Source of the DNA: Rubricoccus marinus
GTDB taxonomy: Bacteria; Bacteroidota; Rhodothermia; Rhodothermales; Rubricoccaceae
Length of the DNA: 64,000 nt
Direction: 5' to 3'
NCBI RefSeq assembly: GCF_002257665.1
Contig: NZ_MQWB01000001.1
Location: 3,793,119 to 3,857,118 of the forward strand
Below the pieces are notes generated by a model. It saw only the letters and a list, made by a program, of their open reading frames with translations, ran no database searches and had not been told where the DNA came from. Of this stretch, positions 1 to 19,109 are shown piece after piece. A program made the position numbers and the translations under genes. Numbering within the stretch: position 1 is the first letter of the stretch; each line of letters starts with the position of its first letter.

Positions 1-749
1 ATGAGGCCCACGAGCGCGAGCGCCATCGCGACCGGGAAGATGATGGACAGCGTCTCCATGTTGAGCGGCACGCTCGGGATGGAGAAAAACGGCAGCGTCG
101 TCGGCAGCTCGCCCATGTCGCCGACGGTGCTGAGGCCTCCGCCGCCAGAGGCCACCGCGAGGATCGTGAGCCCCACAATCGCGATCAGGGGTGAGGGGAC
201 CGCTTTGGTGAGGTACGGCAGGCCGTAGATGATGGCCAGGCCGCCGGCCACGACGGCGTACATCAGCGGCCCCGTGCCGACGAAGAGCGGCAGCTGCGCC
301 ATGAAGATGAGAATGGCGAGCGCGTTGACGAACCCGGTCATGACCGGGCGCGGCACGAACTTCATGTACCGCCCCAGCTTGAACACGCCGAACAACACCT
401 GGATCGCGCCGGTCAGGATCGTTGCGGCGAAGAGGTATTGGAGGCCGTGATCGCGCACGAGCGTGATCATGACGAGCGCCATCGCGCCCGTCGCCGCCGA
501 GATCATCGCGGGCCGCCCACCCACGAACGCCGTGATCACAGCGATGGAGAACGAGGCGTAGAGGCCCACCTTCGGGTCCACGCCCGCGATGATGGAGAAC
601 GCGATGGCCTCAGGAATAAGCGCGAGGGCCACGACGACGCCCGCAAGGAGGTCGGCGCGGACGTTGCCGAACCACTGCTCCTGGAGGGTGCGGCGGCTGG
701 GCAGGGAGAGGCCGTACCGGCTGTCTCCAAAGATGGTGCTGATGTTCAA
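1..749 (-). CDS. SulP-family inorganic anion transporter, C-terminal part outside the window
   Basis: Reading leftward from a TTG codon at 749, the frame encodes the N-terminal half of a SulP (SLC26-like) membrane transporter for sulfate, bicarbonate or related anions. Diagnostic stretches are [20 protein letters not shown] (about residues 40-60), the glycine-rich [18 protein letters not shown] segment and [20 protein letters not shown], together covering several transmembrane helices. The frame is open to base 1, so the rest of the membrane domain and any STAS domain lie outside. A TGA lies three codons upstream of the TTG, so no earlier start is possible, and I see no ATG before the conserved region. 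The substrate cannot be told from sequence. The family call is secure; the start codon is less so. Confidence 0.9.
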
Positions 750-1077
750 GCGGACGGTTCAGTCAACGAGGCGGCTCGGCGCGAGCAGGCCTCTGGCGAA
801 GCAGGGAGGGCGGGTAGTGCCGCTCGACCCGAAAAGAGAAAGGACCCGAGCGACGCTGGGGTCCAAAGGGGTATCGGCGGGAGCCGCGAGAGCAGGAGGC
901 GGCAGAGCCGAATGTGCTCAACCTACGTTTCGGGGCCTCCCGCTCGCGCCTCTCGCAAGGCGGAAGCGCTTCTCTTCACTGGGTTCGGGCACGCCGGCCA
1001 CAGGCTCTTCGCGCACCGCTCCTCAAACAAGCGATGCGCGGTAGGCCTCTGGCGCCAGAGGCGTGGACGAGGCCTGC
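750..1077. other. intergenic region with one perfect 18-bp palindrome
   Basis: This 328-bp gap lies between two leftward genes. It holds a perfect GCCTCTGGCGCCAGAGGC palindrome at 1045-1062, just downstream of the PKD-OmpA lipoprotein stop, and an isolated half-site near 786. I see no convincing ORF, RNA gene or T-tailed terminator. Confidence 0.6.
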
Positions 1078-1764
1078 CTACTGCGGGCAGACGCCGGGGA
1101 CCGAATCCGCGCGCCGGGCGCGGAAGTCTCCTTGCCCTGGCGTGCCCGCGGAGTTCGCATTCGGGTCCTGCCCGAGCCCTTGCGCAGCGGCGCGCGTTCT
1201 CGCGACGCCCTGGGAGAGGTAGTAGTCCTGCACAGCATCCGCGCGTGCTTGGGAGAGGGCGGCCTGGTCGGTCTCCAGGTCATCCGTGTACGCCTGGATG
1301 GTCAGGCAGACGTTGCTGCATTGCCGGACCGACAGGGCGTTCCGGTCCAGAGCAAGGAGATCCTTCTCGTCGAGCACAGCGCTCTGGAAGGGGAAAAGGA
1401 CCTGAGCAAATTGCAGGTCCTCACAGAGAGGGTCGGACACCTCGACGGTTTCCGCGCAAGAGGCCGACCCGAGCGCGTTGATGGCGGTCACCCTCGCGGA
1501 GAAGGTCCCGGCGGCATCGTAGGTGTGCGAGACGGGGAAGGTGGTCACGTCGTCCTCGTCGCCGTCCCCCCAGTCGATGGAGACGAGAACGGGCTCCTGG
1601 GCGTCTCCGTTAAGCACCGCGTTAAAGACCACCTCATCTCCAGGCTCGATCTCGCTCTCGGAGACCGTGCATCCCGACAGGACGGGGGCCACGGCTTCCC
1701 CCGTGGTGGAGTCGCAGGCCGCGAGGCTAAGGCAGAGAGCGGCGAGGGCGAAGCGTTGGAGCAT
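1078..1764 (-). CDS. lipoprotein with PKD domain and OmpA-like C-terminal domain
   Basis: This is a 228-residue outer-envelope lipoprotein. Residues 1-17 form a signal peptide ending in the lipobox LSLAAC, so Cys17 should be lipidated. A PKD-type beta-sandwich follows at about 30-115 (SIDWGDGDEDDVTTFPVSHTYDAAG is its WGDG...HTYxxxG core), then an OmpA-like peptidoglycan-binding region from about 118. In that region the usual GHTD motif is replaced by QAYTDD, but the ALSQARADAVQDYYLSQGV helix is typical. The likely role is anchoring the envelope to peptidoglycan. The weak TD/R motif means peptidoglycan binding is inferred rather than shown. The ATG start follows a TAGGTTCT -7-like element. Confidence 0.82.
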   Translation of the reverse strand: MLQRFALAALCLSLAACDSTTGEAVAPVLSGCTVSESEIEPGDEVVFNAVLNGDAQEPVLVSIDWGDGDEDDVTTFPVSHTYDAAGTFSARVTAINALGSASCAETVEVSDPLCEDLQFAQVLFPFQSAVLDEKDLLALDRNALSVRQCSNVCLTIQAYTDDLETDQAALSQARADAVQDYYLSQGVARTRAAAQGLGQDPNANSAGTPGQGDFRARRADSVPGVCPQ

Positions 1765-1912
1765 GGCTGGGTGTCGGGTCCGGAAGGGGAGAACCTACGC
1801 GGCGCGAGATGGAGACGTTCTCCGTACACCGCTGCGAAAAGCACGGGCCTTCAACGGCGCCCGCTTTGATTCCGTGCGCGCCAGAGGCTCGGCGGGCGCA
1901 CACCGCACGCGC

Positions 1913-1920
1913 TAGCTTCT
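1913..1920 (+). promoter_or_regulatory. candidate Bacteroidota-type -7 element
   Basis: TAGCTTCT lies 21 bp upstream of the GTG start at 1942 and fits the TAnnTTTG consensus loosely. No clear -33 TTG accompanies it. Confidence 0.3.
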
Positions 1921-1941
1921 CCGTGTCCCGCCCGAAGCCCC

Positions 1942-2601
1942 GTGCGTACTCTTTTCCTCGCTGCCCTCGCTGCCCTCGCTGCCCTCGCCGTTCTCGTGCC
2001 TCTGGCGGGTTGCGCCGTTCCCTACAACGTGGGGCAAACCGCGCGCACGACTCCAAAGGGCGTCGCGGTCCCGAGCGCGACCTTCCAGTACGCCTCTCAC
2101 GACCGCCTTCGGGAACCAGGCGACGACGACAACCCCGCGTTCATGCTCAGCAACGGGGTCCGTCTGGGGCTCGACGAGCGGTCCGATATCGGGCTCCGCA
2201 TCGTCGGCGTGGGCGCAGTGGTGACCTACGGGCGGCGGCTGACAGGGATGCCTGGGACCGACGCCGGGACGACGCTTCTGGCGGGCGGAGGCATCCTGTT
2301 TGGCGGCGGCGGGCACGCGCATCTGGAAGCCAGCGTCGTGACCTCGGCGGCATCCATCGGCGAGCTCACGCCCTACGGCGGGGTGCGCGCCCAGTACCTC
2401 GGCCCCTTCGGCAACGACAACGAGAACGTGTTCGCGACCGGCGTCTTTGGCGGGATCCGGTTCGGCGAGCCCAATCTCGCGATCGCGCCGGAACTCGGCC
2501 TCTTCTACAGCCCCACGTCGGGGTTCGGTGAGAGCGACCTCGTGGTGGTGCCCAGCGTGACCGTGCGCGGATCGGGCCTCTTGCGCGCTCTAGGGCTTTA
2601 G
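1942..2601 (+). CDS. lipoprotein, putative outer-membrane beta-barrel-like protein
   Basis: A 219-residue protein starting at GTG, chosen because it begins a clean signal sequence. The signal is built on a CTCGCTGCC-type 9-bp tandem repeat that encodes LAALAALAAL, and it ends in the lipobox PLAGC at about residue 24. The mature part is rich in Gly and in alternating hydrophobic residues (VGVGAVVTYG, GGGILFGGGGHAHLEASV, FGGIRFGEP, APELGLFYSP), as expected of amphipathic beta strands. I do not recognise a named family, and its function is unknown. It stands alone on the plus strand, divergent from the upstream OmpA lipoprotein. Confidence 0.75.
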   Translation: MRTLFLAALAALAALAVLVPLAGCAVPYNVGQTARTTPKGVAVPSATFQYASHDRLREPGDDDNPAFMLSNGVRLGLDERSDIGLRIVGVGAVVTYGRRLTGMPGTDAGTTLLAGGGILFGGGGHAHLEASVVTSAASIGELTPYGGVRAQYLGPFGNDNENVFATGVFGGIRFGEPNLAIAPELGLFYSPTSGFGESDLVVVPSVTVRGSGLLRALGL

Positions 2602-2803
2602 CGCGGGCTTCGCCACGCCAGAGGCGAGCTCTCGTGCCGAGACGCCACAGCGAGGGCGCCCTTTCCCCCCGCACACGAGGCCGCCCGCGTCGGCCGTTCG
2701 GGGCTTCTGGCGCCAGAGGCCATGGATTCGCATTGCCTCTGGCGAGAGCGGATCCGCGCCTGGGTCTGCCCCTAATTTCCCGTCTCCTCCTCCTCTCTGA
2801 CTG

Positions 2804-3322
2804 ATGCCCACCTGTCCCCGCTGCGTTCTCTTCGCCCTCCTCCTTGGGGTCCTCGCGTTCAGCGGGTGCGATACCAACAACCCCGGCTCCAGCCTGACCG
2901 AGGTGCAGGGCGTTTACGCCATCACGGAGCTTTCCTTCAACCCGGATCAGCCCGAGGTCCTCGCGGATATCGACGTGCTGGCAGGCCTCCGCGCGGGGGC
3001 GACCATCGAGGTGGTCGGGGATGGCCAGGCGGTCGTGCGATTTGAGCGCATCGGCAGCGCTAGCCAGCTCGTGATCGGCACGGCGCGCGCCACCTCGCGG
3101 TTGGTCAGCGTCACGGCCCGTACGGACGCCGATGCCGGCAAGCTGGAACGCATCCTGCTGCCCGCTGCCTTCTCGCTCAACCGTGATGAGGTAAACGCCA
3201 ACCGCCTCTCGGCGAACATCGACGTCGACGGTGTGGACCTTGAGGCCTACGACCCGCAGTATGGCAGCCTCAACGATGTCAGCGGCCGCCTCACGATCAC
3301 GCTGAACCGCACGAACCCGTAA
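2804..3322 (+). CDS. hypothetical lipoprotein
   Basis: A 172-residue protein with an N-terminal hydrophobic segment and lipobox AFSGC at about residue 22, followed by the polar DTNNPGSSL linker usual in exported lipoproteins. The mature domain, about 140 residues of mixed beta character ending in SGRLTITLNRTNP, looks like a small lipocalin-like or beta-sandwich fold, but I recognise no family motif. The gene ends just before an 18-bp palindrome and a strong hairpin terminator shared with the convergent sigma-factor gene. Confidence 0.75.
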   Translation: MPTCPRCVLFALLLGVLAFSGCDTNNPGSSLTEVQGVYAITELSFNPDQPEVLADIDVLAGLRAGATIEVVGDGQAVVRFERIGSASQLVIGTARATSRLVSVTARTDADAGKLERILLPAAFSLNRDEVNANRLSANIDVDGVDLEAYDPQYGSLNDVSGRLTITLNRTNP

Positions 3323-3333
3323 TGATCCGGGCG

Positions 3334-3351
3334 GCCTCTGGCGCCAGAGGC
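3334..3351. repeat. perfect 18-bp palindrome GCCTCTGGCGCCAGAGGC
   Basis: One of the intact inverted pairs of the dispersed half-site. It lies 12 bp after a stop codon, between convergent genes and beside a conventional terminator, so here it is probably not the only terminator. Confidence 0.95.
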
Positions 3352-3379
3352 CGACGGCACCGTTTGGAGCGCATACAGA

Positions 3380-3412
3380 AACGCCCCGGTCGTGAGAAAC
3401 GGCCGGGGCGTT
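3380..3412. terminator. bidirectional hairpin terminator
   Basis: AACGCCCCGGTCG and CGGCCGGGGCGTT form a 13-bp stem with one G-U wobble around the loop TGAGAAA. It lies between the convergent lipoprotein and ECF sigma genes. Read on the minus strand, the stem is followed by TTTCTGT. Confidence 0.8.
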
Positions 3413-3437
3413 GCATGTGGGATCTCTCGCCAGAGGC

Positions 3438-4100
3438 TTAGGACTCCTCGGGGGAGTACACGTCCTTGAGGATGCCTTGGAGCTTGGTGCGGCCGCGGTT
3501 GATGCGGCTCTTGACCGTGCCCATCGGGAGGCCCGTGATCTCAGCGATCTCCTCGTAGGCGAGCTGCTGCACGTCGCGGAGGACGACGACCTCGCGGAAC
3601 TCCTCGGGGATCTGGCTCAAGGCGTCCTGGATGTGGCGGTCCTGGATGGTGCTCTCAGCGTGGGTGTCGGGCGAGAACGTCTCGTCCGGGATCTCGACCT
3701 CGTACTCCTCGTCGTCCCGGTTGGTGGACTGGAGGCTGTACACGCGGCGGCGCTTGCGCTTGCGGTACTCGCTACGTGCGAGGTTGCCCGCGATAGTGTA
3801 GAGCCAGGTCGAGAACTTGGCAATTCGGCGGTAGCTGTGCCGGTTGCGGTACACGCGGAGGAACGTCTCCTGCAGGAGATCCTCGCCCTCCTTCACATCT
3901 CCGAGGAAGCGGTAGATGTAGTTCGTCAGCGGGTCGTGGTAGCGCTTGACAAGGATGTCGAACGCTTCGACGGTGCCCATCTGGAACTGAGACATCAGAT
4001 CCTCGTCTGTCATCTCGACGAGCACGTCATGGTTGCGGCGGCCCGGCGTTTCGGGGCGGGCGGCGGCCTTGGCGAAGGTTTGCTTCTTGAGAGTGGGCAT
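3438..4100 (-). CDS. RNA polymerase sigma factor, ECF (sigma-70) family
   Basis: An ECF sigma factor of about 220 residues. Region 2 is visible in DILVKRYHDPLTNYIYRFLGD and EDLLQETFLRVYRNR with the core-binding ...FSTWLYTIAGNLA motif. Region 4 is visible in EEFREVVVLRDVQQLAYEEIAEITGLPMGTVKSRINRGR, a helix-turn-helix that would read the -35 element. I chose the ATG at 4100, which yields MPTLKKQ; the frame also stays open to a TTG at 4172, adding 24 poorly ordered residues. There is no anti-sigma gene beside it, so its control is unknown. Its TAA stop is followed directly by GCCTCTGGCG. Confidence 0.9.
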   Translation of the reverse strand: MPTLKKQTFAKAAARPETPGRRNHDVLVEMTDEDLMSQFQMGTVEAFDILVKRYHDPLTNYIYRFLGDVKEGEDLLQETFLRVYRNRHSYRRIAKFSTWLYTIAGNLARSEYRKRKRRRVYSLQSTNRDDEEYEVEIPDETFSPDTHAESTIQDRHIQDALSQIPEEFREVVVLRDVQQLAYEEIAEITGLPMGTVKSRINRGRTKLQGILKDVYSPEES

Positions 4101-4289
4101 CGAGATGGGAGCTAAGGAGAGGTGGTCGGTCCGTGCCACCGGCAAGCGTGGCAGGACTGAGTGGATGTTCAAAGGCCGTGCCCATCTGCCTGTTGTAACA
4201 GCGAACGGGGGAATGCATTAGGGGCACTGTGGCGTTTCGGAGCACGCCAGAGGCCTGCTGCGGTATGGCCGGGAGGCCTCTGGCGCGCG

Positions 4290-5312
4290 TCAACCGGGCG
4301 TAAGGCGGCGGATGAGCAAGGCGAATACAGCCTGTGGATCGCGCTGAGACCCGCCTTTGAGCTCTGCATCGGCGGCAAGGAGCGCGCCAAAGGCGGCCGG
4401 CAGGCGGGGCCCCAGGCGCCGCTCGGCGGCGATGTACTCGCGGAGGACGAACGGCGGCACGCCGACCTGTCGGGCCATCTGGTTTTCGGGCACGCCTTGT
4501 TCCCGACAAGCTGTCACCTTCCAGACTTTCTGGATGTACGCCCCGAGCAGGGCGATCATCCGAATGGCTTCTCCGCGACGGTTCGTCGCGAGGCCCATCA
4601 GCGAGAGGCCGATGCCGAGCGCGCGGGCGCGGTCGCCCCCTGCGATGGCGCTCTGGAGCTCGAAGACGTTCTCCTCGCGGCTGTGGCCCGCCGCCTGCAC
4701 GATGTCATCGCGCGTGACGCGGTCCCGGCTACCGACGTAGGTGACCAGTTTGTCCACCTCTCCGGCGACCGTCCGAAGGTCCGGGCCGGAGAGATCTGCG
4801 AGCATCTGGGCGGCGCCGCTCTCGGTGGCTTTCCCCTGCTCGCGGAAGCGGCTCTCCACCCAGCCGTGGAGCTGGCGGTCCTTGAGCGTCGCGAACTCCG
4901 AGGCGACGGCATGCTGCTTGAGCGCGCGGTACGGATGGTGCGAGAGGTTGGGCTTGGAGTTGCAGCACAGGATGACAACGGCCGTCGGGTTGGGCTGCGC
5001 GGCGTAGGCGCTGAACAACTTGTTGTCGTCCAGTTGCTCGAACCCGCGCACGATGACGACGCGCCGCTCCGCCATCATGGGGAACTGAGCGCACTGAGCC
5101 AGGACGGACTGCGCTTGCGCCTCGGGGCCGAAGATGACGTCGAGGTTGAAGTCCCGCTCGTGCGGCGCGACGAGCCCAACGGCCAGCCGCTGCAACTCGT
5201 CGATGAGGTAGCCTTCCTCGCCATAGAGGAAGTAGAGCGGCTTGACGTTGCCGCTCTGGAACGCTGTCCGCAGGTCCTCAAAAGAGGGGCCGGTGTTCTT
5301 CCCTTTAGCCAT
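4290..5312 (-). CDS. holA: DNA polymerase III subunit delta
   Basis: A 340-residue protein matching the HolA family in length and order. It starts with PLYFLYGEEGYLIDELQ (the degenerate P-loop region of the delta clamp-loader subunit). RVVIVRGFEQL and the PNPTAVVILCCNSKPN strand follow, then the domain-III helical collar with SREENVFELQSAIAGGDRARAL. Delta opens the beta sliding clamp in the clamp-loader complex. The ATG at 5312 lies only three bases from a TAGCTTCC element, suggesting a leaderless or nearly leaderless message. Confidence 0.92.
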   Translation of the reverse strand: MAKGKNTGPSFEDLRTAFQSGNVKPLYFLYGEEGYLIDELQRLAVGLVAPHERDFNLDVIFGPEAQAQSVLAQCAQFPMMAERRVVIVRGFEQLDDNKLFSAYAAQPNPTAVVILCCNSKPNLSHHPYRALKQHAVASEFATLKDRQLHGWVESRFREQGKATESGAAQMLADLSGPDLRTVAGEVDKLVTYVGSRDRVTRDDIVQAAGHSREENVFELQSAIAGGDRARALGIGLSLMGLATNRRGEAIRMIALLGAYIQKVWKVTACREQGVPENQMARQVGVPPFVLREYIAAERRLGPRLPAAFGALLAADAELKGGSQRDPQAVFALLIRRLTPG

Positions 5313-5315
5313 ACG

Positions 5316-5323
5316 GGAAGCTA
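5316..5323 (-). promoter_or_regulatory. candidate -7 element of holA
   Basis: On the minus strand TAGCTTCC is followed by CGT and then the holA ATG. If it is a true -7 element, transcription would start at or next to the start codon. A CGCCAGAGGC half-site lies immediately upstream. Confidence 0.4.
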
Positions 5324-5370
5324 CGGCCCGGCCTCTGGCGCGGTCCGCCCGTCCGGCGCGAAGACGGGAG

Positions 5371-5388
5371 GCCTCTGGCGCCAGAGGC
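5371..5388. repeat. perfect 18-bp palindrome, representative of the dispersed family
   Basis: GCCTCTGGCGCCAGAGGC. Other perfect copies between genes begin at 1045, 3334, 14224, 19780, 22603, 23852, 30504, 32014, 32523, 34940, 44945, 47075, 47992, 49162, 51558, 51832, 52277, 55038, 55868 and 60989. Perfect copies inside genes begin at 9838, 28778, 32850 and 56402. One-mismatch copies begin at 2703, 6256, 22412 and 33441. The opposite junction CGCCAGAGGCCTCTGGCG occurs near 23050, 30020, 32101, 38225, 39311, 45485, 56692 and 63821. Single half-sites are far more numerous. Confidence 0.97.
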
Positions 5389-5429
5389 CTCCCTACGCCA
5401 GAGCGGTCTCGCCCGGTTGGGCGTGCGGC

Positions 5430-6179
5430 TCAGTCCGTCGCCACGCGGAGGCCGTGGAAGGCGACCGGCACGTCCGCGACGCCGTCCACGACGAACTGCA
5501 CGCGGATGTCCTGCCCGAAGTCGGCGTCCGAGACGGAGGCGACGAGCGCGTCGCCGAGGTAGAGGCGAGCCTCCGCGCCATCGACCGCGAGGCGGACCGG
5601 GATCTCGTCGGCGCCGGCGATCTCGGGCGAGACGTACTCGCCGCCGCTGGCGCTGCCGAGCGCTAGGCCGCTCTCGCCGTCCACGATGACGTAGCTCTCG
5701 CCTGCGGGATCGCCACTCTCGCTGGCGACGGAGATCTGGATAAACGGCGTCGCGCCAGAGGCCAGGAGATCGAACTCGACGGTGAACGCGTCAGGCATCG
5801 GGCCGTCCAGGACCACGTCGAAGGCGCCGGACTCCGACGCTTCGAGGGCGCCGTCGTCGGTGAGCGCGAAGGCGCCACCCCAGACGTGGATGCCGCCGGG
5901 CAGCGTACCGGGATCGCCGCCGAGCTCGAAGACGACGGTCGCGCCGGGAGCGAAGGCGCCGCCAGAGGCCTCGGCGGTGGCGGTGCTGTCACCCATGAAG
6001 CCGTTGATGGCGGCGCTGCTGCGGCGCTCCACGTCTTTCCGCACGGCGTCCACGCCGGACTGGATGGTGGACTTGGCGGCATCGCGGGCGCGTTGCCAGA
6101 ACGACTGCGCGCTCGTAGGGGCGGCGGTCGCTACGAGAAGGACGATCAGGAGGGGGAGGGAAAAGCGGGAACGCGTCAT
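5430..6179 (-). CDS. secreted protein of unknown function, related to the OmpA protein at 33531
   Basis: A 249-residue exported protein. Residues 1-23 are a signal peptide (LPLLIVLLVATAAPTSAQS). Next comes a short alpha-helical, charged segment (FWQRARDAAKSTIQSGVDAVRKDVERR), and then a beta-rich domain resembling a LamG/concanavalin-like sandwich (TVEFDLLASGATPFIQISVAS, EIPVRLAVDGAEARLYLGD). The helical segment and beta domain recur in the same order in the protein at 33531-34940, which also carries an OmpA domain absent here. I start at the ATG at 6179; the frame is open further upstream, but that extension is arginine-rich antisense-like sequence. The function is unknown. Confidence 0.8.
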   Translation of the reverse strand: MTRSRFSLPLLIVLLVATAAPTSAQSFWQRARDAAKSTIQSGVDAVRKDVERRSSAAINGFMGDSTATAEASGGAFAPGATVVFELGGDPGTLPGGIHVWGGAFALTDDGALEASESGAFDVVLDGPMPDAFTVEFDLLASGATPFIQISVASESGDPAGESYVIVDGESGLALGSASGGEYVSPEIAGADEIPVRLAVDGAEARLYLGDALVASVSDADFGQDIRVQFVVDGVADVPVAFHGLRVATD

Positions 6180-6282
6180 GGCTAGAAAGGGGGGCTCCCC
6201 CTTTCGTGCGTCGTTCGCCCCCGAGAAGGACCATCGCCCCCCCAGAAATGCGATGGCCTCTGGCGCCAGGGGCCGCAGGCAC

Positions 6283-7167
6283 CTACCGCTCCAGCGTGGT
6301 CTCCAGCCAGCCCAGAACGTGCTCGCGGTAGGCCTCTGGCGCGAACCGGTAGAGGTCCTGGTGCGCCGCGCCAGAGGCGATCCACAGCGCTTTGGGCTCG
6401 GGCGCGTTGGCGTAGAGGCGCCGGGCCTCCTCGGGCGTGGCGTGCTCGTCTTCGGTGCCGCTGGCGACGAGCACGGGCGCGTTCGCGTCGCGGATGGCGG
6501 CCTCTGGCGCGAGGGAGTCCAGCGGGACGCCGAGGCGGAGCCGCACCTGGGAGGTGAGGACGGGTGCCAGGGGCCTGCCGATACCGCCGAGGCGCATCGT
6601 GAGCCGGTTCTCGGTCGCCTGCGCAAGCGAGCCGTAAACGGACTCGATCACGAGGGCGTCGGCGCCGAGGTCGGCCCCGGCGTAGAGCGCCGCGGCGCCG
6701 CCCATGGACTGCCCGACGACCGCCACGGGCGCGCCGGGAAGCCTCTGGCGCATCCACGCAACGGCCGCGATGGCGTCGTCCTGCTCGCGCCAGCCGAAGG
6801 TGATCTGGTCGCCAGGGCTCTCGCCGTGGGCCTGGAAATCGAAGAGGAGCACGGCATAGCCGGCGTCTCGGAACAGCCGCGCGCGCTCGGTCAGGCTGCG
6901 GCGGTCGGCGCGGACGCCGTGCATCAGCACGACGGCGCCTCTGGCGCCAGCCTCTCCGCTAGAATCCGCGGGCACGAACCACGCCGCCAAGTCGGCGCCA
7001 GAGGCGCTGGGGATACCGACCGTCTCGGCGCCGAGGTCCGCGGGCGGCGGCCCGATCTCTCGTGGGACGGGGGCCGTCAGCAAAGAGCCGAGGGCGAGCA
7101 CGCCGCTGATGCCGACGAGAAGGGCGGCGCCTACGATGAGGCTCGTGACCTTCGCCCGCCGGGTCAT
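6283..7167 (-). CDS. alpha/beta hydrolase, membrane-anchored
   Basis: A 294-residue serine hydrolase. An N-terminal hydrophobic helix (about 8-31) should anchor it in the inner membrane. The hydrolase fold follows, with oxyanion-region VVLMHGVRADRRS, nucleophile elbow GQSMGG (Ser at about 152), acid in LVASGTEDEHATP and a C-terminal catalytic His in ASGAAHQDLYRF. The order fits S9/BAAT-like or DUF-type hydrolases; the substrate is not predictable. Its ATG overlaps the stop of the upstream DinB-like gene as ATGA, so the two are probably translated together. Confidence 0.88.
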   Translation of the reverse strand: MTRRAKVTSLIVGAALLVGISGVLALGSLLTAPVPREIGPPPADLGAETVGIPSASGADLAAWFVPADSSGEAGARGAVVLMHGVRADRRSLTERARLFRDAGYAVLLFDFQAHGESPGDQITFGWREQDDAIAAVAWMRQRLPGAPVAVVGQSMGGAAALYAGADLGADALVIESVYGSLAQATENRLTMRLGGIGRPLAPVLTSQVRLRLGVPLDSLAPEAAIRDANAPVLVASGTEDEHATPEEARRLYANAPEPKALWIASGAAHQDLYRFAPEAYREHVLGWLETTLER

Positions 7168-7718
7168 CCCCGCGTGCGTTGCGAGATGTCCGCGCTGTGC
7201 AGGCGGTAGGCCAGCGTTTTCAATTCGTCCGCGTCGCGCCGCACGATGTCAAGCGCGAGGCCGTAGAGGTCCATCGTTTCGTCGCCCAGCGTGAGGGGCC
7301 GGTCCCACACCTCTGGCGCGATCTCGGCCACGCGCGCCGCCAGAGGCTGGCGCTGGGCGCGGACGTCGGCCAGAAGCTCATGGAGGTCGCGCTCGTTGGC
7401 GCCCTCGCCGAGCGCGCTCAGGTCCGGGACGGCAAACGTGGGCGCCTCTGGCGACGCGCCGGAGGCCTCGATCTGGTCCAGCCAGCCGGGGTACACGTCG
7501 CGGTCGAGCGCGGCGAGGGCCTGGAGGGTCTCTTTGACCGTCCGCTCTTCGGGGACGGGCGCCTGGTCCACGGCCCAAGCGGGCAGGTCTGCCAAAAGTG
7601 GGCCCAGCGCGGCGGCCTCGTCGGCCAGCCAGCCGAGTTGGTCCACGAGGGCAAGCCGGCGCGCTTCGAGCACGGCGGGCTCGCGCGAGGGCTCGCGGTA
7701 TCTGTCGAGGTCAACCAT
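7164..7718 (-). CDS. DinB-like four-helix protein (putative)
   Basis: A 184-residue, mostly helical protein with no signal or membrane segment. The arrangement (LVDQLGWLADEAAALGPLLADLP, then ERTVKETLQALAALDRDVYPGWLDQI, then a C-terminal DLHELLADVRAQRQPLAARV helix) resembles DinB/YfiT-type metal-dependent four-helix bundles. The usual metal-binding His triad is not evident, so enzymatic activity is doubtful. It overlaps the following hydrolase gene by 4 bp. Family assignment is tentative. Confidence 0.65.
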   Translation of the reverse strand: MVDLDRYREPSREPAVLEARRLALVDQLGWLADEAAALGPLLADLPAWAVDQAPVPEERTVKETLQALAALDRDVYPGWLDQIEASGASPEAPTFAVPDLSALGEGANERDLHELLADVRAQRQPLAARVAEIAPEVWDRPLTLGDETMDLYGLALDIVRRDADELKTLAYRLHSADISQRTRG

Positions 7719-7782
7719 GGGCCAGTGGGAATGGGCCAGGAGCCAGCGGGGGCGCTACTGGCCACTCCCCACTCGCGACTGG

Positions 7783-8445
7783 CTACGCGTCAGCGATGAC
7801 TTCCGTGTTCGGCGGCTCGTGCTCGTCGGCGCGCGCGAGGGACTCCTCCAGACCGGCCATGTAGTCCAGGCGGTTGCGGAGCGTGTGGACGTTGTTGTCC
7901 TGGCGGTGCTTCCAATCGCCAGAGGGCGCGCCGTTGCGCCGAAGCTGGAGGAAGTTGAGCCGGTCCGTGAGCCGCTCCTTGGGCACGAGGAGTTTGTCGA
8001 TGCCGAAGTGCGCCTCCTCGCGGTCCTGGAACGTGAGGTCGTACTCCTTGGACATCACGATGGCCTCCTCGGGGCAGACCTCTTCGCAGAAGCCGCAGTA
8101 GATGCACCGCAGCATGTTGATCTCGAACCACTCGGGCTCGCGCTCCTTGATGTCGTCGGTGACCTCGTGAGCCTGCATCGAGATCGCCAGGGGCGGGCAC
8201 GAGCGGGCGCAGAGGCCGCAGGCCACGCAACGCGGGCGGCCCTGCTCCTCCACGAGGACGGGGCGGCCACGGTAGCTATCCGGCGGGTACCACTGCTCCT
8301 CCGGGTACTGGAAGGAGTAGCTCTCCAGCTTCATCTTGGAAGCGGAGTAGCCGAGGCCCTTAAAGATCTCCGGGAGGTAGAGGCGCTCCCAGAAGTTGAG
8401 CTTGCGCTCATCGGGCGTGGATTTGTCGACGAACTGGCCGGGCAT
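7783..8445 (-). CDS. nuoI: NADH-quinone oxidoreductase subunit I
   Basis: A 220-residue protein carrying two 4Fe-4S cluster motifs: C73-V-A-C76-G-L-C79-A-R-S-C83-P and C114-I-Y-C117-G-F-C120-E-E-V-C124-P. These are the N6a/N6b ligands of respiratory complex I, flanked by NuoI features ([21 protein letters not shown] and [17 protein letters not shown]). It passes electrons in the peripheral arm towards quinone. No other nuo gene is next to it, so the complex I genes are scattered, or this is a lone copy. A TAGCTTTC element lies 23 bp upstream of the ATG. Confidence 0.93.
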
Positions 8446-8468
8446 GGACGGTGGTTTCGGTCTCGGGT

Positions 8469-8476
8469 GAAAGCTA
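8469..8476 (-). promoter_or_regulatory. candidate -7 element of nuoI
   Basis: TAGCTTTC on the minus strand, immediately downstream of a CGCCAGAGGC half-site. Confidence 0.35.
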
Positions 8477-8573
8477 CGCCTCTGGCGGGGCGCGGTTCGC
8501 CCTCGGCGCGGCGCTTCGGGACGTGTTCACCGCCAGAGGCGTGGCGTCGTGGCCTCGGGCGCCCGAGGGCGGG

Positions 8574-11213
8574 TCAGCGAACGACGGTCACGAGCCGCGT
8601 TGTGCGGCGCTCTCCCGCCGTCGCCTCCACGGCGTAGACGCCTGGTGCGAGGTCCCCCGGAAGCTTCAATGCCACGTCGCCAGAGGCCTGTGGCCCGTCT
8701 GCCAGAACCGCGACCTCGCGGCCGAGCATGTCCAGCACGCGGACGCGGACGGCTTCTGGCGCGGTGAGCGCGAGGCGGACGGTGGCGCCGCCGCGCGCGG
8801 GGTTCGGCGCGACGGTGAGCGCGATCTCGCCAGAGGCGCCGGGTGTAGGCTCGCCGGCGACGGGTGGCGGGTCGGCGGTGTAGAGGCGGATGATGGTGCC
8901 GACCTCCGGGAGCGCGGGCGCGGCCTCTGGCGAGCCGAAGACGTATTCGTCCAGCGGGTCTCTGCGAGTGTCTATAAGCGAGAACAGACGCGCTCGGTCG
9001 GGTTCGGTAAAGCACGCCTCCGGTGCGCTCTCGACGCGTGGCCTGTACTCCGCTTCGAACTCCCCATAGGTCGTGGCTGGGTAGTACGCGCCGATCGTGC
9101 TCGACTGGACGTAGTTCGGGAAGTCTGCGGGGGTGGGAACACCTTGGAATCCTTCTCCCGGCCCAAACGTGCATGGCGCGCGCGAATTGAACGTCGGTAC
9201 GAGGCGCACGTCATCGGCGGGGTCGTTCTCGGCGCCGGGCGTGACCGCACCGATGTCCCAGACTTCAAACGGGACGCCTCGCACTGTGAGGTCGTACACG
9301 CTCGTTGCGAGGCTGCCCTCATCGGTGAACCGGATCTCGAAATCGTTGGGAGTGAACCGGCCAAGGGCCGTCGCCGCGTACGAGCCGCTGTATGTATTGA
9401 GGTAATAGGCGCCCGTTGAATTCAGGGAGCGGTAGACGAGGTTGCCTCCCACCTCCTCACATCCGTCTCGGCTCTCGGCGCTGCCGGCGCACGGATCAGA
9501 GCCGCCCGGTCCCGCGCTCTCGACAAACGCGAACGCACCAGAAGCCAACGTGAGAGGCCCCGCGCGGTACACGAACACGGACTGGGGCTCCGAGGCGGAA
9601 CCGCTGCCCCCATTCGCGAACGCGCGGACCTGCCAGAACACCTCTTGCGTTCCAAACCGGGCGGTCCGGGCATCGCGGGTCAGATCGAAAATCCGAAGCG
9701 TGAGCGACGGTTCTGTGACCGTTCGGGAGTTGAACAACGTGCTGGGCGAGAACCCCCAGCGGACGTAGTAACCGCTCGCGCCATCAACGGGCGTCCACGA
9801 GAAGGCCACCGAATCTGCCTGTGTAGCCGGAGCTCCGGCCTCTGGCGCCAGAGGCGTGGGCGTGGCGAGCGCGGTGAGATCGGCGCCGAGGCCCCAGAGC
9901 GTTCCCGCGTCGTAGGCGTCCTGCACGGCATCGCTGACGGCGCGGAGTTCGGTGACGCTGTCGAGGCGGTCCGCTCCTTGCGCAAAAAGGGCCGCGAGGT
10001 CTACCGTGTGGCGCTCGCCAGAGGCCAGGTCCAGCGGGGGCGCGGCGAGAACGAACGTGAGGTTGCCTCCGAATCCGTTCGTACCCATCCCGTCTGCATT
10101 CTCCGGGCTCCAGAACTGTCCGGTGACCGGGTCGCCGGGGTAGAAGAACGGCGTCAGGGGATACGTGCTGGGCTGCTGATACCCATGTTCGTATTCGCGC
10201 TGTGGAGAGCCATCGCCCCACAATCCCTGGAGACGGTAAGAGTACTGATTCGCGGTAGCGGGGTATCCGGTCGTCATCGCGGGGTGCCCGTTAGGGATGT
10301 AGGTCGACGTCGCCGCGCCACCGAGGAGGTCGAAGCCAAACGCGGGCGGAGTCCCGTACACTGCGTCGGTTTCCGCTCTGTTGTACACCACCGTCATCGA
10401 GCGCGTCGTGTCGGTGTGGAGGAAGTCGTCGCTGGCATCGCCGAGGTCTGTATCGGCGTAGAAGCCCGCGCGGAGCCCCTCAATGGTGCTCGGCCCTCGG
10501 TTGAGGACCTCGTAGCGGTAGAACGTGGCCTCTGGCGTCCCGGCCACCTCGCCTCCCGCACCGGAGATGGCGAAGGCGCTCACGCGCACCTCCACACCGA
10601 GCGGCGGCGTCTCGCGAGCGGTGTGCGGCGCGCCCACGTCGTTCATGACCCACCACGCCGTCTGGCTGCCGTAGATCACCGGCCGCTCGCCCGCGCCGAG
10701 GTCCAGCACCTGCTCCCGCGAGGTCGCCGCTAGAGGCTGGCCGCTGGCGTCCACGGCGGGCGCGCCCAGTCCCACCGGCCACGCCGCGAGGTCCGCGCTC
10801 GCCTCGCCAGAGGCCTCGTAGCGGTCCACGTCCGCGGTGCTCACGACGTAGATGCGGTCGAACGCGGAGCAGTCGTCGGCGTCGGGGAGCGTGCCGTCCT
10901 CGTTGAGCGGGCCGGGCCAGAACGCGGGGCCACCGAAGACGGCGCCGGCGGCCCGTACCTCCCCGCCGACCTCGCCGCTCAGCCAGAGCCCCGCTGCATA
11001 AACGGGCGAGTTCCCCGAGGTGCGCGGCACGACGTACCCGCTGGCGGTGCTGTTGCCGAGGAACAGGCTCCCGGTGTTGAACACGCGCGCGAAGACGTTG
11101 GACACGTCGAGGTCCCCCTCGGCGGTCCCCATCTCGCACAAGCCGGGCGTCTGGGCGTGGGCGCCAGAGGCTACAAAGAGGAGCAGGGCGGCGAGCGTAG
11201 CGAAACGGCGCAT
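8574..11213 (-). CDS. secreted protein with T9SS type A C-terminal sorting domain (paralogue 1)
   Basis: An 879-residue exported protein. The signal peptide MRRFATLAALLLFVASGAHA precedes a long beta-rich body. A fibronectin-III-like segment lies at about 470-560 (SVAFSWTPVDGASGYYVRWGFSP). The last 85 residues are a type A T9SS sorting domain (GEIALTVAPNPARGGATVRL ... GREVAVLADG ... GVYAVEATAGERRTTRLVTV), so it should cross the outer membrane by the Por secretion system and be surface-attached or released. I start at the ATG at 11213, not the upstream in-frame codon, because that gives a clean signal peptide. It is a tandem paralogue of the next protein. No catalytic motif is seen. Confidence 0.9.
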   Translation of the reverse strand: MRRFATLAALLLFVASGAHAQTPGLCEMGTAEGDLDVSNVFARVFNTGSLFLGNSTASGYVVPRTSGNSPVYAAGLWLSGEVGGEVRAAGAVFGGPAFWPGPLNEDGTLPDADDCSAFDRIYVVSTADVDRYEASGEASADLAAWPVGLGAPAVDASGQPLAATSREQVLDLGAGERPVIYGSQTAWWVMNDVGAPHTARETPPLGVEVRVSAFAISGAGGEVAGTPEATFYRYEVLNRGPSTIEGLRAGFYADTDLGDASDDFLHTDTTRSMTVVYNRAETDAVYGTPPAFGFDLLGGAATSTYIPNGHPAMTTGYPATANQYSYRLQGLWGDGSPQREYEHGYQQPSTYPLTPFFYPGDPVTGQFWSPENADGMGTNGFGGNLTFVLAAPPLDLASGERHTVDLAALFAQGADRLDSVTELRAVSDAVQDAYDAGTLWGLGADLTALATPTPLAPEAGAPATQADSVAFSWTPVDGASGYYVRWGFSPSTLFNSRTVTEPSLTLRIFDLTRDARTARFGTQEVFWQVRAFANGGSGSASEPQSVFVYRAGPLTLASGAFAFVESAGPGGSDPCAGSAESRDGCEEVGGNLVYRSLNSTGAYYLNTYSGSYAATALGRFTPNDFEIRFTDEGSLATSVYDLTVRGVPFEVWDIGAVTPGAENDPADDVRLVPTFNSRAPCTFGPGEGFQGVPTPADFPNYVQSSTIGAYYPATTYGEFEAEYRPRVESAPEACFTEPDRARLFSLIDTRRDPLDEYVFGSPEAAPALPEVGTIIRLYTADPPPVAGEPTPGASGEIALTVAPNPARGGATVRLALTAPEAVRVRVLDMLGREVAVLADGPQASGDVALKLPGDLAPGVYAVEATAGERRTTRLVTVVR

Positions 11214-11380
11214 GCGATTCGGGCAGGGGGCGGGTGGAAGCATACCCCGCTGGGGGGGACGGCCGAGGGCATTGCTGCTGCCCTGCAACCGACATGGCGG
11301 CCTCTGGCGCTACGTCGGTCAGTCGGATTCTATCACGCCAGAGGCAAAAGCCTTAGCGGCCTCTGGCGCCCGAGGCTTGC

Positions 11381-14032
11381 TCAGCGGACGACGGTCACGA
11401 GCCGCGTCATGCGGCGCTCGCCTGCCACCGCCTCCACGGCGTACACCCCAGAGGCGAGGTCCCCCGGAAGGCGCAGCGCCATGTCGCCAGAGGCCTGTGG
11501 CCCCTCGGCTAGCGTTGCCACCTCGCGACCGAGCATGTCGAGCACGCGGACGCGGACGGCCTCTGGCGCGGTGAGCGCGAGGCGGACGGTGGCGGCGCCG
11601 CGCGCGGGGTTCGGCGCGACGGTGAGCGCGATCTCGCCAGAGGCGCCGGGTGTAGGCTCGCCGGAGACGGGGGGCGGGTCGGCGGTGTAGAGGCGGATGA
11701 CCGTGCCGGCCTCGGGAAGCGCGGGCGCGGCCTCTGGCGACCCGAAGAGGTATCCGTACACTGGTAGGCGGTCAACGTCGAAGAGGGTTTGGAACCGCTC
11801 GCCGTCGGTCTCTTCGAAGCACCCATCTGGTGCCGCTTCCACAAGGGGGGCGTATTCCGCTTCGAAATCCGCGTACGTCGTAACGGGATATGCGGCCCCG
11901 ATACGGTCCGAGAAGACATAGCCCGGGAAATCTGGATCCCTCACGTTGAAGCCACCGATGGGGCCGAACTCGCATGCCATGTCGGACCGATAGGTCGGCA
12001 GCAGCTGGACGTCATCTGAGGGGTCGTTTTCCTCCCCTAGCGCAACAGCGCCCACATCCCAGACTTCGAAGGGGACCCTGCGTACTCGAAGGCCATTACA
12101 GAAAGGCGCGCAACTCGCGAGTCCGCCCGATCTGGTGAAGCGGATCTCGTAATCATTAGGCGCGAAGGGTCCGATTTGGTAGGCCGAAAAGTCTTCTTGG
12201 GTCGAGGCGAAATAGTACGCGCCCGTTGAGTTCAGCGAACGGTACACGAGGTTGCCGCCGGTTTCGTCGCACCCGTCTCGGCTCTGTGCGCTCTCGGCGC
12301 AGGGGTCTGCGCCACCCGGCCCCGCCACTTCGATAAACGCGAGCGCGCCAGAGGCCAGCATGAGTGGCCCTTCGCGGTACACGAATACGGACCGCGGCTC
12401 GGAATACTCTCCGATGCCCCCGTCGCCGAGCGGGCGAACACTCCAGAAAACCTCCTGTATGCCGAATCGCGATCGCCGCCGGTCGATGCGCGTGAGCTGC
12501 TCAACGCGTAGAGCGAGCGAGGACCCGGGGGACTGCTGCGTGTTAAACAGGCTGTCCGGCGAGAACCCCCAGCGGACCTGGTAGCCACTCGCACCACCCA
12601 CCGGCGTCCACGAGAAGACCACCGAGTCCGCCTGCGTAGCCGGAGCTCCAGCCTCTGGCGCCAGAGACTGGGGCGTAGCGAGCGCGGTGAGATCAGCGCC
12701 GAGGTCCCAGAGCGTTCCCGCGTCGTAAGCGTCCTGCACCTCGTCGCTGACGGCGCGGAGTTCGGTGACGCTATCGAAGCGGTCCGTCCCCTGCGCGAAG
12801 AGGACCGCGAGGTCCACCGTGCGGCTCGCGCCAGAGGCCAGCGTGCTGGGCGGCGCCGTGATGACCATGCGTCGGTCGCCAGCAGGGTTGTTCGTGCCCT
12901 CGCCGTCGATGTTCTCCTCGCTCCAGAAGGACCCCGTTACTGGGTCTCCTGCAAGGACGAATGGCGTAACGGGGTACGTCTCGGGCTGCCCGTAACCGTC
13001 CCCGAACTCGCGCACCCGTGAACCGCCGCTCCACAAGCCCTGGAGCACGTTGTACATCTGCTCGCCCGTGACCGGGTCCCCCGTCGTCGTCGCGCTGGCC
13101 CCGCCGATGAACCAGCTGGAGGCGCCCGCGCCGTTCAGCAGGTCTATCCCTAGTGCGGGCGGGATGCCGTACACCCCATCTGTTGGAATGTCGTTGTAGA
13201 CGATGGCGAGGCTCCGCGTCGTATCGGTCGCGATGTAGTCGTCGGCCGCATCGCCCAGGTCGGGATCCGTGAAGAAGCCCGCGCGGAGGCCTGTGATCTC
13301 GTTCGCGCTCCGGTTGACGATCTCGTAGCGGTAGAAGGTGGCCTCTGGCGTGCCGGCCACCGCATCGCCCTCGCCGGAGATGGCGAAGGCGCTCACGCGG
13401 ACTTCCACGCCCAGCGGCGGCGTGTCTTGAAGGAGGTGGGGCGCCCCCACGTCGTTCATGACCCACCACGCCGTCTGGCTGCCGTAGATCACCGGCCGCT
13501 CGCCCGCGCCGAGGTCCAGCACCTGCTCCCGCGAGGTCGCCGCTAGAGGCTGGCCGCTGGCGTCCACGGCGGGCGCGCCCAGTCCCACCGGCCACGCCGC
13601 GAGGTCCGCGCTCGCCTCGCCAGAGGCCTCGTAGCGGTCCACGTCCACGGTGCTCACGACGTAGATCCGGTCGAAGGCGGAGCAGTCGTCGGCGTCGGGC
13701 AGCGTGCCGTCCTCGTTGAGCGGGCCGGGGTAGAAATTGAAGTTGGTGTAGCGCGAGCCCGCGACGCGGAGCTCGCCCTCGGCGTACCCACCCAGCCAGA
13801 TGCCCGCCGCGAACAGCGGGGAGTGGTTGGAGAAGCGCGGCACGAGGTAGCCGTCGCCATTGGTGGTCGCGTTGCCGAAGAACAGGCTCCCGGTGTTGAA
13901 CACGCGGGCGAAGACGTTGGACACGTCGAGGTCCCCCTCGGCCGTTCCTAGCGCGCACGAGCCGGGCGTCTGGGCGTGAGCGCCAGAGGCTGCAAAGAGG
14001 AGCACTGCGAGGAGTGTAGCGAAACGACCCAT
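11381..14032 (-). CDS. secreted protein with T9SS type A C-terminal sorting domain (paralogue 2)
   Basis: An 883-residue paralogue of the protein at 8574-11213, with the same architecture: signal peptide MGRFATLLAVLLFAASGAHA, beta-rich body, Fn3-like segment and T9SS type A tail. Similarity is patchy. The body has diverged, while a DNA stretch of about 200 bp (13446-13646) is identical to 10633-10833, and the sorting-domain DNA is also nearly identical. That pattern points to gene conversion or a recent partial exchange. The start is the ATG at 14032. As adhesin-like cargo without an enzymatic motif, it may be a surface structural protein. Confidence 0.9.
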   Translation of the reverse strand: MGRFATLLAVLLFAASGAHAQTPGSCALGTAEGDLDVSNVFARVFNTGSLFFGNATTNGDGYLVPRFSNHSPLFAAGIWLGGYAEGELRVAGSRYTNFNFYPGPLNEDGTLPDADDCSAFDRIYVVSTVDVDRYEASGEASADLAAWPVGLGAPAVDASGQPLAATSREQVLDLGAGERPVIYGSQTAWWVMNDVGAPHLLQDTPPLGVEVRVSAFAISGEGDAVAGTPEATFYRYEIVNRSANEITGLRAGFFTDPDLGDAADDYIATDTTRSLAIVYNDIPTDGVYGIPPALGIDLLNGAGASSWFIGGASATTTGDPVTGEQMYNVLQGLWSGGSRVREFGDGYGQPETYPVTPFVLAGDPVTGSFWSEENIDGEGTNNPAGDRRMVITAPPSTLASGASRTVDLAVLFAQGTDRFDSVTELRAVSDEVQDAYDAGTLWDLGADLTALATPQSLAPEAGAPATQADSVVFSWTPVGGASGYQVRWGFSPDSLFNTQQSPGSSLALRVEQLTRIDRRRSRFGIQEVFWSVRPLGDGGIGEYSEPRSVFVYREGPLMLASGALAFIEVAGPGGADPCAESAQSRDGCDETGGNLVYRSLNSTGAYYFASTQEDFSAYQIGPFAPNDYEIRFTRSGGLASCAPFCNGLRVRRVPFEVWDVGAVALGEENDPSDDVQLLPTYRSDMACEFGPIGGFNVRDPDFPGYVFSDRIGAAYPVTTYADFEAEYAPLVEAAPDGCFEETDGERFQTLFDVDRLPVYGYLFGSPEAAPALPEAGTVIRLYTADPPPVSGEPTPGASGEIALTVAPNPARGAATVRLALTAPEAVRVRVLDMLGREVATLAEGPQASGDMALRLPGDLASGVYAVEAVAGERRMTRLVTVVR

Positions 14033-14254
14033 ATGGTTAGAAGCGATAGCGTACCCGCAACATATTTGCGCGTACATCGAACCGCTCGGAGAAACCCGTC
14101 AGTGGTCTCGCGGTGCTGCTGAGTGGCTACGCGTCCGCTCGGCTGCGCCCCCGCGTCGGCCTCTCGCGCCAGAAGCCTCTGGCGCCGGGAGCCTCACCCC
14201 GTGTTTGCATGGAAAGGCGATCCGCCTCTGGCGCCAGAGGCCAGGCCCGCGCCG

Positions 14255-16333: not shown

Positions 16334-16906
16334 CGTGAGCTATACATGCTTGCCGGTCATACGAGGCACAGTTTGAGCAGCACAGACATGCCACTGGTAG
16401 GCTGGGTTTTGGAGCTCGGCACGGCCTCTTCGTGCAAGCTCTCCCAAGGCAAACGCATAAACCCTAGTCAATAGAGGGGATCGGTCTGCCAAACGGGGCG
16501 TTTAGGGCGGGAGGTATACTGACCGATGTTGACGCTATAAAGCGGGGCGGATTTGATCCTGTTTGATGGGTCCGGGCCTATGTGGGGGAGGACACGGAAC
16601 GATTTCGTGGCGCCTCGCCCGGATATTGATGTGGCACGTCCAAGTCCTCGTCACCCCGCAGATTTATCCGCAGACAGTGCATGAGTAGAAGCTTGATCCT
16701 CTTTCCGCAAACGATTGCATTGGTGGGCTAGGGCGATAGCGGCGTGTTGGTCGGCCGTGGCGGCGGCGTGCAAAAGGGTCGGCGGTGCCGGCCACGACCT
16801 GTTGCTCGATTCCGGGCGCGGGCGCGCCAGAGGCCTGCCGTCTTCGGTCGGCTTCACACTGCGCGCTCGCGCGGGGCCTCTGGCGAACCCCTTGCGCGCC
16901 CGGCGG
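16334..16906. other. long intergenic region upstream of lipA
   Basis: This 573-bp region lies between divergent genes. It is noticeably less GC-rich between about 16440 and 16700 than its surroundings. No frame has coding character or homology that I recognise. The half-site motif is absent from about 16334 to 16825 and appears only near 16829 and 16876. The region presumably holds the control sequences of both flanking genes. Confidence 0.5.
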
Positions 16907-16914
16907 TACCTTCG
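16907..16914 (+). promoter_or_regulatory. candidate -7 element of lipA
   Basis: TACCTTCG lies 21 bp before the lipA ATG. TTG occurs upstream, but at shorter spacing than the usual Bacteroidota -33/-7 pair. Confidence 0.4.
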
Positions 16915-16935
16915 CGTAAACCAACCGCATACACC

Positions 16936-17931: not shown

Positions 17932-17941
17932 CCCCGCCACC

Positions 17942-18361
17942 ATGCGTCTTCTCCCGCTGCTCGGCCTCGCACTGCTCTTGCCTCTGGCGGGGTGTGGCCT
18001 CCTCGGCCGCCCCGCGGGGACGACCATCGCGCCGCACGTCGTCTTCCTGGCGCCCACGGGTTGCGCGGCGGCGGTCGCGAAGGTGCACCGCGGCGGCTAC
18101 GCGCTGATGGAGGTCGTCGAGGACGGCTACGCGTTCGAGCAGGGCGACGTGCTGGAGGGGCCGGACCGCGAGGGGCAGTCCATCTTCCGCCGCTTCCCCC
18201 CGGCGTTCCGCAACGCGGAGTGGTCGGAGGGCATCGAGGTCCCCATCGACGTTGTCGCGACCGGGCTTGAGCTCGGCGTGGCACGCCGGCAACTAGACGC
18301 ACGGTGTGTCGTGGAGGCGGAAGAGCTCCCGCGCCTGCCAGGCGCCGGAACGGTCCAGTAA
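17942..18361 (+). CDS. hypothetical lipoprotein
   Basis: A 139-residue protein starting 10 bp after lipA. The signal peptide ends in the lipobox PLAGC (Cys18), itself encoded by a CCTCTGGCG half-site. The mature region has two further cysteines and reads as a small compact domain (VVEDGYAFEQGDVLEGPDREG), with no family that I recognise. It may be co-transcribed with lipA, given the spacing. Confidence 0.75.
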   Translation: MRLLPLLGLALLLPLAGCGLLGRPAGTTIAPHVVFLAPTGCAAAVAKVHRGGYALMEVVEDGYAFEQGDVLEGPDREGQSIFRRFPPAFRNAEWSEGIEVPIDVVATGLELGVARRQLDARCVVEAEELPRLPGAGTVQ

Positions 18362-19050: not shown

Positions 19051-19109
19051 GTCCGGCTGGCCCGCCAGAGGCCCGGACGACGCATGAACAGGAGTCCCTC
19101 CGCTCCACT

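Follow-up and report, generated by a model that had tools for sequence, protein, structure and literature searches.

Features of the Window

The window, a stretch of 64,000 nt, is contained in the genome of Rubricoccus marinus SG-29T (4,430,441 bp in 15 scaffolds), and it was rightly placed in the phylum Rhodothermota by the first-pass annotation. Within and between its genes, 272 copies of the 9-mer CCTCTGGCG, 256 copies of the 10-mer GCCTCTGGCG and 25 copies of an 18-bp palindrome were found. The positions of the features are given in Table 1. The earlier hand count of 15 9-mers between positions 5300 and 7500 was reproduced exactly by the recount.

Table 1. Copies of the word and its inverted pairs at individual positions of the window.
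Feature	Position	Strand	Context	Observation
10-mer GCCTCTGGCG	1..64000	128 per strand	whole window	256 in total, 11-22 per 4 kb
9-mers CCTCTGGCG/CGCCAGAGG	5300..7500		in and between the genes for DNA polymerase III delta, an alpha/beta hydrolase and a DinB-like protein	n = 15 (10-mer, n = 14)
18-bp palindrome GCCTCTGGCGCCAGAGGC	5371..5388		intergenic	one of the 25 in the window
Changed dialect, GCCTCTGGCGG	18454..18463	+		homologous place in G007 is GCCGCTGGCGG, containing that species' own word GCTGGCGG
Inverted pair CGCCAGAGGCCTCTGGCG	23049..23066		aminotransferase gene (22621-23817, -)	clean 15-bp in-frame insert; homologues of three relatives lack it
Palindrome in coding sequence	32850..32867		carbon-nitrogen hydrolase gene (32583-33416, +)	clean 12-bp in-frame insert; homologues of four relatives lack it
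Single half-site by substitution, GCCTCTGGCG	35461..35470	-	M13 peptidase gene	G001 has GCCGCTGGAG, gapless

Abundance of the Word in the Window and the Genome

The number of 10-mers expected in the window was 0.6 from base composition and ∼1.1 from first- to third-order Markov models, which were trained on the window with the motif masked. Compared with the number observed, the excess is therefore more than 200-fold, which confirms and exceeds the roughly hundred-fold excess that had been claimed. Since every 4 kb held 11 to 22 copies, the word was not limited to a few segments, in agreement with the similar density described for most of the 64 kb. Genome-wide, 14,176 copies of GCCTCTGGCG (7049 and 7127 on the two strands) were counted, compared with 61 (24 and 37) for the reversed control, together with 873 copies of the palindrome, and the abundance proposed from the window thus holds for the whole genome. 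As with DUS and USS, the word is short and its copies are far above expectation.

The word was spread evenly along the chromosome and was carried by 97% of the sampled genes longer than 1.5 kb. Its chromosomal density was ∼3.5 copies/kb, compared with 0-0.15/kb on the sampled plasmid or mobile scaffolds (C11, C14, and C15), the GC content of which is similar. The copies were spaced no more regularly than expected by chance (CV 1.14, with spacings of 30 bp or less left out), and the flanks showed a weak base preference only. The 18-bp palindrome was found in none of the other 393 genomes of the phylum that were searched and in none of the viral contigs, and no comparably strong word appeared in short samples of other Rhodothermales families, none of them longer than 20 kb. 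In the literature, the motif string occurred only in four unrelated animal-treatment papers, presumably as primers.

Placement and Orientation of the Copies

Two thirds of the copies in a 1.06-Mb sample were located inside genes; single copies outnumbered palindromes, and most copies lay outside palindromes. The density of single half-sites was 7-13/kb between genes and 2.45/kb inside genes, and that of inverted pairs was 0.8-2.4/kb between genes versus ∼0.06/kb in coding sequences (26 pairs outside and 8 inside predicted genes of the window). As single half-sites, too, are more concentrated in intergenic DNA, pairs account for only about half of the intergenic copies in the window. The initial description of single half-sites in genes and inverted pairs between genes was mostly right.

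The strands were balanced in all 47 sampled blocks. Adjacent copies were in opposite orientation 1,396 times and in the same orientation 778 times, and close inverted pairs were in excess (222 at offset 8 in 664 kb). A second type of inverted pair, CGCCAGAGGCCTCTGGCG, which the first reading did not mention, was also present. The complementarity of the pairs ended exactly at the edge of the 10-mer, with no larger element around it, and a fold-back origin of the palindromes was ruled out by this boundary. The lack of orientation bias, the presence of copies in genes and the close inverted pairs are features of DUS and USS.

Origin of the Copies

The homologues of G001, a species of the same genus, were compared with 184 well-flanked single copies, and 145 of them showed no net indel. 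A comparison of this kind was the test by which USS were shown to arise by substitution (PMC1626085). As judged from these alignments, single copies of the R. marinus word also arise through substitution in place and not through insertion; mobile elements were refuted as the source of the single copies, most of which align without net indel. Two palindromes, by comparison, were inserts of 12 and 15 bp, in frame, relative to the relatives. Moreover, perfect copies (3,456) exceeded copies with one mismatch (1,618) by ∼2:1, and such an excess is a hallmark of USS and DUS (PMC1626085).

Different Words in Related Species

G001 lacks GCCTCTGGCG and has a word of its own, GCTGGCGG, with 8,020 copies versus 1,599 for the control. 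The same word was found in G007, a species of another genus (7,454 copies versus 2,023), and it was at background in R. marinus (1,111 versus 1,125). Two further species, G004 and G006, have the word CCGAGGCGG. Each of the words of the relatives was above synonymous-codon shuffles on both strands and was denser between genes; the shuffles, together with the intergenic excess, ruled out a codon-usage artefact. An assembly or adapter artefact was rejected because the copies are located in conserved genes, where the differences are of the substitution type, and because independent assemblies have their own words. New words fell on old-word sites of G001 25 times, the expected number being 10.8 ± 3.0. 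The three words have only GGCG in common, which chance yields in 18% of shuffles, and the shared motif is therefore not significant as a sign of common descent. Clade-specific dialects are present in the relatives, as in DUS and USS. The occurrence of different words in close relatives, which was beyond the view of the first-pass annotation, is the most informative fact of the analysis.

Competence and Methylase Genes

R. marinus encodes a full-length ComEC, a ComEA-like protein (C1:2892579) and an adjacent PilC/GspF-PilB/GspE pair (PilB-type ATPase gene, C1:209672), and it therefore has core competence machinery, as do the bacteria with DUS and USS. A ComP-like pilin was not found in R. marinus with the N_methyl signature (PF07963), a short profile that may miss divergent pilins; the signature was present only on plasmid C11 and in none of four relatives, and no PilO was found. 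ComEC was widespread and occurred also in relatives that have no word. Among Bacteroidota, Riemerella is known to be naturally transformable. Neither C5 methylases (PF00145) nor N6/N4 methylases (PF01555) were found in R. marinus, and PF02384-type enzymes were present on one of its plasmids.

Interpretation of the Word

It is considered probable, at roughly 60%, that GCCTCTGGCG serves as a DNA uptake sequence specific to the species, by which DNA of the same species is tagged. The best reading appears to be that Rhodothermota evolved an uptake-sequence system independently and that this system has dialects; apart from regular spacing, all of the genomic hallmarks tested lend good support to the reading as an uptake signal. 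The analysis showed the word itself, its genome-wide excess, the dialects, the origin by substitution, the strict consensus, the even spread on both strands, the lack of the word in the plasmid DNA sampled and the core competence genes; preferential uptake, a receptor and accumulation through drive are inferred. A DNA-binding component of the competence machinery would prefer DNA bearing the word, and DNA of the same species would then be taken up and recombined more often. Because same-species DNA would be preferred, mutations that make or improve a copy would be passed on preferentially, and the word would accumulate across the chromosome by molecular drive. Related species may have different words because the specificity of the reader changed and the genome was rewritten in place. 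Against uptake stand the failure to find a ComP-like pilin or PilO, the presence of ComEC even in relatives lacking a word, the chance-level similarity of the three words and the spacing, which in USS and DUS is somewhat more regular than random (PMC1626085).

The likeness to the DUS dialects of Neisseriaceae includes a non-palindromic 10-12-mer, thousands of copies on both strands, inverted pairs close together in intergenic DNA and dialects differing between related species (PMC3630211). The phylum and the sequence are different, however; R. marinus has ∼3.2 copies/kb, whereas 943-4,265 DUS copies per genome are reported (PMC3630211), no ComP-like pilin was found in it, and it shares no word at all with G001 of its own genus. 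The USS of Pasteurellaceae are similar in their substitution origin, excess of perfect copies, lack of orientation bias and two clade-specific types (PMC1626085), but they occur about once per kb and have AT-rich flanking motifs.

Sequence-specific uptake words were documented only in Neisseria and its relatives and in Pasteurellaceae (PMC3630211, 2013). If Rhodothermota provide a third case, unrelated to these and in an organism in which no ComP-like pilin was found, repeated evolution of the trait would be demonstrated, and independent material would be available on the reason for uptake words and on the way in which they switch. A species-specific label would, if the reading is true, let cells recognise and take up DNA of their own kind, and it could give a practical route to transforming R. 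marinus and related marine bacteria. The clade is also a strong natural experiment, in which two species of one genus have entirely different words in thousands of copies each, one word is common to different genera, and alignable homologous genes allow the rewriting of thousands of sites to be traced.

Among the alternatives, the words may be a genome-wide self-mark that spreads by means other than biased uptake, methylation or Chi; marked DNA might, for example, be spared or preferred by a nuclease, argonaute or recombination factor inside the cell, and the mark could replace its word throughout the genome even between species of one genus. This is unlikely. The word may also act as a repair-driven self-spreading motif. 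It is quite unlikely that the word is bound by a nucleoid-associated or transcription-termination factor and has no role in uptake: the inverted pairs are skewed towards the stop-codon side of intergenic regions (46, 33, 28, 16, and 7 by quintile) and are densest between convergent genes, but most copies lie inside genes, regulatory sites are usually relaxed in consensus (PMC1626085), and a nucleoid protein would hardly account for the turnover of an entire word among species of one genus. No T-tract followed the pairs, which leaves intrinsic terminators a weak candidate. A small mobile or self-copying palindromic element (REP/MITE-like) that inserts copies would account for the two in-frame inserts and is very improbable in view of the single copies, most of which lack a net indel, the pair complementarity confined to the 10-mer, and the thousands of copies inside genes.

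Of the roles first suggested, the uptake signal fits the tested hallmarks apart from regular spacing, and the comparison with HIP1 fits poorly. HIP1 of cyanobacteria and its alternates have been proposed to be made and kept by DNA methylation together with a mismatch repair bias that depends on it. HIP words are of similar scale (500-2500 per Mb) and are swapped for one another, GGCGCC included, in related genomes (PMC4390886), and GGCGCC is the centre of the R. marinus palindrome. HIP words, however, are palindromic and match a genomic methylase, whereas the R. marinus unit is a non-palindromic 10-mer and no methylase of PF00145 or PF01555 was found. A HIP1-like origin is distinctly unlikely. 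A Chi-like recombination signal, read by RecBCD or AddAB in break repair, is rather unlikely. Like Chi, the word is short and overrepresented on the chromosome, and GCTGGCGG differs from E. coli Chi by one base and is one of five proposed proteobacterial candidate Chi motifs (PMC8022716). Chi sites, however, show a leading-strand polarity, whereas the R. marinus word is strand-balanced in every sampled block, with neighbours more often opposite than alike and inverted pairs enriched, and neither the word of R. marinus nor that of G004 resembles Chi. E. coli has about 1,000 Chi sites in 4.6 Mb, and the density of the R. marinus word is more than ten times higher; it is also above every DUS, USS or HIP value found in the literature.

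Abundance and distribution of the word

Rubricoccus marinus, the source of the window, is a cultured isolate, and the SG-29T draft genome comprises 15 scaffolds of 4,430,441 bp in total with 69.0% G+C (PMC5609423). The first-pass annotation had counted 15 copies of a 9-mer at 5300–7500, and the same number was obtained here. The non-palindromic 10-mer containing it, GCCTCTGGCG (the word), was found 256 times in the window against an expectation near 1 and 14,176 times genome-wide against 61 for the reversed word; the large excess claimed earlier is thus real, and the word occupies ∼3.2% of the genome (14,176 copies of ten letters). The 18-bp palindrome, an inverted pair of the word, had 873 copies in the whole genome. 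All of the 46 20-kb blocks sampled on the main scaffold carried 47–97 copies, and the word is therefore present throughout rather than in a few segments. In total, ∼1.06 Mb of R. marinus sequence was read with home-made gene calls, and densities were compared with the values in PMC3630211, PMC4390886, and PMC1626085. Of 155 sampled genes above 1.5 kb in length outside the plasmid scaffolds, 151 contained the word, and 44% of all TCT and 60% of all AGA codons in genes lay inside it.

Codon usage was ruled out as the origin of the word by synonymous-codon shuffling within each gene, which left 43 sense and 26 antisense copies in place of the 803 and 649 observed in the genes of 664 kb, as well as by the 666 intergenic copies in this sample (9.3 per kb; reversed word, 1). 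Perfect copies (3,456) outnumbered one-mismatch copies (1,618) despite thirty possible one-mismatch words. Changes were common at positions 1, 3, 4, and 7 and rare at positions 2, 5, 8, 9, and 10. An anomalously strong consensus of this kind has been described for USS and DUS (PMC1626085).

The expectation that acquired DNA might be poor in the word was borne out: 20-kb samples, on which all plasmid figures rest, contained 0–0.15 copies per kb in the scaffolds C11, C14, and C15 with G+C near that of the chromosome, and C10 was intermediate (1.75 copies per kb). A binning artefact was ruled out for the word-poor scaffolds because the genome comes from an isolate. The palindrome was not found in viral contigs. 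The word was almost absent from plasmid C11, which encodes a type II secretion or pilus-like cluster (secretin, PilN, T2SSF, prepilin peptidase, and N_methyl pilins). A Tle1-like phospholipase domain is encoded on plasmid C15, as is a restriction-modification protein of type ISP.

Locations and contents of the scaffolds and repeats
Feature	Location	Content
Window	G000:C1:3793119-3857118	Genome of 4,430,441 bases, 15 contigs
Scaffold C15	65 kb (L083)	Rep3 initiator and relaxase
Scaffold C11	168 kb (L079)	RepA protein
Scaffold C14		Integrase
Fixed-offset pair of the same-genus relative G001 (examples)	L054:1933, L054:4350, L058:13493, L242:2948	
GTGTCATCGCGAG...CTCGCGATGACAC inverted repeats	Window 22483-22567, 23955-24039, 63927	
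Tandem short repeats, intergenic	Window 32552-32579	CCAGTCC/CCCAGTC

Origin of single copies and inverted pairs

When 111 kb of R. marinus was aligned to G001, 184 single copies had good flanks. These copies arose by substitution, since most aligned without net indel (145 of 184; 115 gap-free), which excludes insertion elements as their source; G001 mismatches fell most often on the two T positions. Inverted pairs occurred at less alignable sites, and two of them, located in conserved genes, were clean insertions that kept the reading frame (12 and 15 bp). Clear enrichment was confined to the tightest overlaps, with an 8-bp offset in either orientation (147 and 75 in 664 kb). As only these offsets were enriched and complementarity stopped at the edge of the 10-mer, the overlaps look like two words packed together; a fold-back origin is disfavoured by the same edge.

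Different words in related genomes

The word was at background in G001 (99; control, 101) and in 58 further relatives. Instead, GCTGGCGG was abundant in G001 (8,020 copies; control, 1,599) and in G007 of another genus (7,454; control, 2,023), and was at background in R. marinus (1,111; control, 1,125), while CCGAGGCGG is the word of the relatives G004 and G006. In 0.5 Mb of G001 and 0.08–0.11 Mb each of G004, G006, and G007, every dialect word was in excess on either strand, with higher density in intergenic DNA. In G001, G006, and G007, the genome's own dialect word, or one overlapping it, topped the codon-corrected gene and intergenic lists of 8- and 9-mers; in G004 its dialect word topped the gene list and shared the intergenic top place with an unrelated repeat, CATCCTGAG. 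This distribution suggests that GCTGGCGG may be the older word and that R. marinus switched. In aligned genes, new words lay on old-word sites 25 times (shifted controls, 10.8 ± 3.0), the most frequent offset setting TCTGGCG on GCTGGCG.

No word was found in small samples of G002 and G003, which belong to more distant genera of the family. Other Rhodothermales families, sampled over short stretches, yielded no comparably strong word, although weaker ones would be missed at this sample size. CCTCGCCGA was mildly in excess at a locus of another family (L211; 11 copies in 20 kb, expectation 1.1), as was the overlapping CTCGCCGA at L125 (22 against 6.9). Codon usage may explain these excesses, or they may represent a weak word of this type.

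Candidate function

From these genomic comparisons, the word is probably a DNA uptake sequence (probability roughly 0.62). The likeness to DUS/USS proposed by the first-pass annotation extended to every hallmark tested in the genome but regular spacing. The absence of strand polarity in the words speaks against a Chi-like recombination signal, although GCTGGCGG is identical to a proposed proteobacterial Chi. The suggested likeness to the HIP1 palindrome is disfavoured, as the unit is non-palindromic and no PF00145 or PF01555 methylase was detected in R. marinus at Pfam sensitivity, to which all absences of protein families refer.

The com/pil genes expected for an uptake sequence were recovered in part. 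R. marinus encodes a full-length ComEC (N-terminal, core, and beta-lactamase-like domains), a ComEA-like helix-hairpin-helix protein of 203 aa, and neighbouring PilC/GspF and PilB/GspE on the chromosome; ComEC is also encoded by relatives that have no such word of their own. A ComP-like receptor was not in evidence, because the profile search found pilin signatures on plasmid C11 only and no PilO match in R. marinus, both weak negatives given short or divergent profiles.

Other repeats

An inverted pair of the G001 word, in which the offset is always 27 bp and the central part is conserved (approximately GCTGGCGG-N2-GCYCTCGSCGAG-N3-G-N-CCGCCAGC), occurred 25 times in the G001 sample, 22 of them outside predicted genes; none of this kind was seen in R. 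marinus. The GTGTCATCGCGAG...CTCGCGATGACAC repeats form a separate, REP-like intergenic family that also occurs in G001 (TCATCGCGAG, 31 and 13 copies in the samples). The tandem short repeats were likewise common to G001 (17 and 10 matches in samples).
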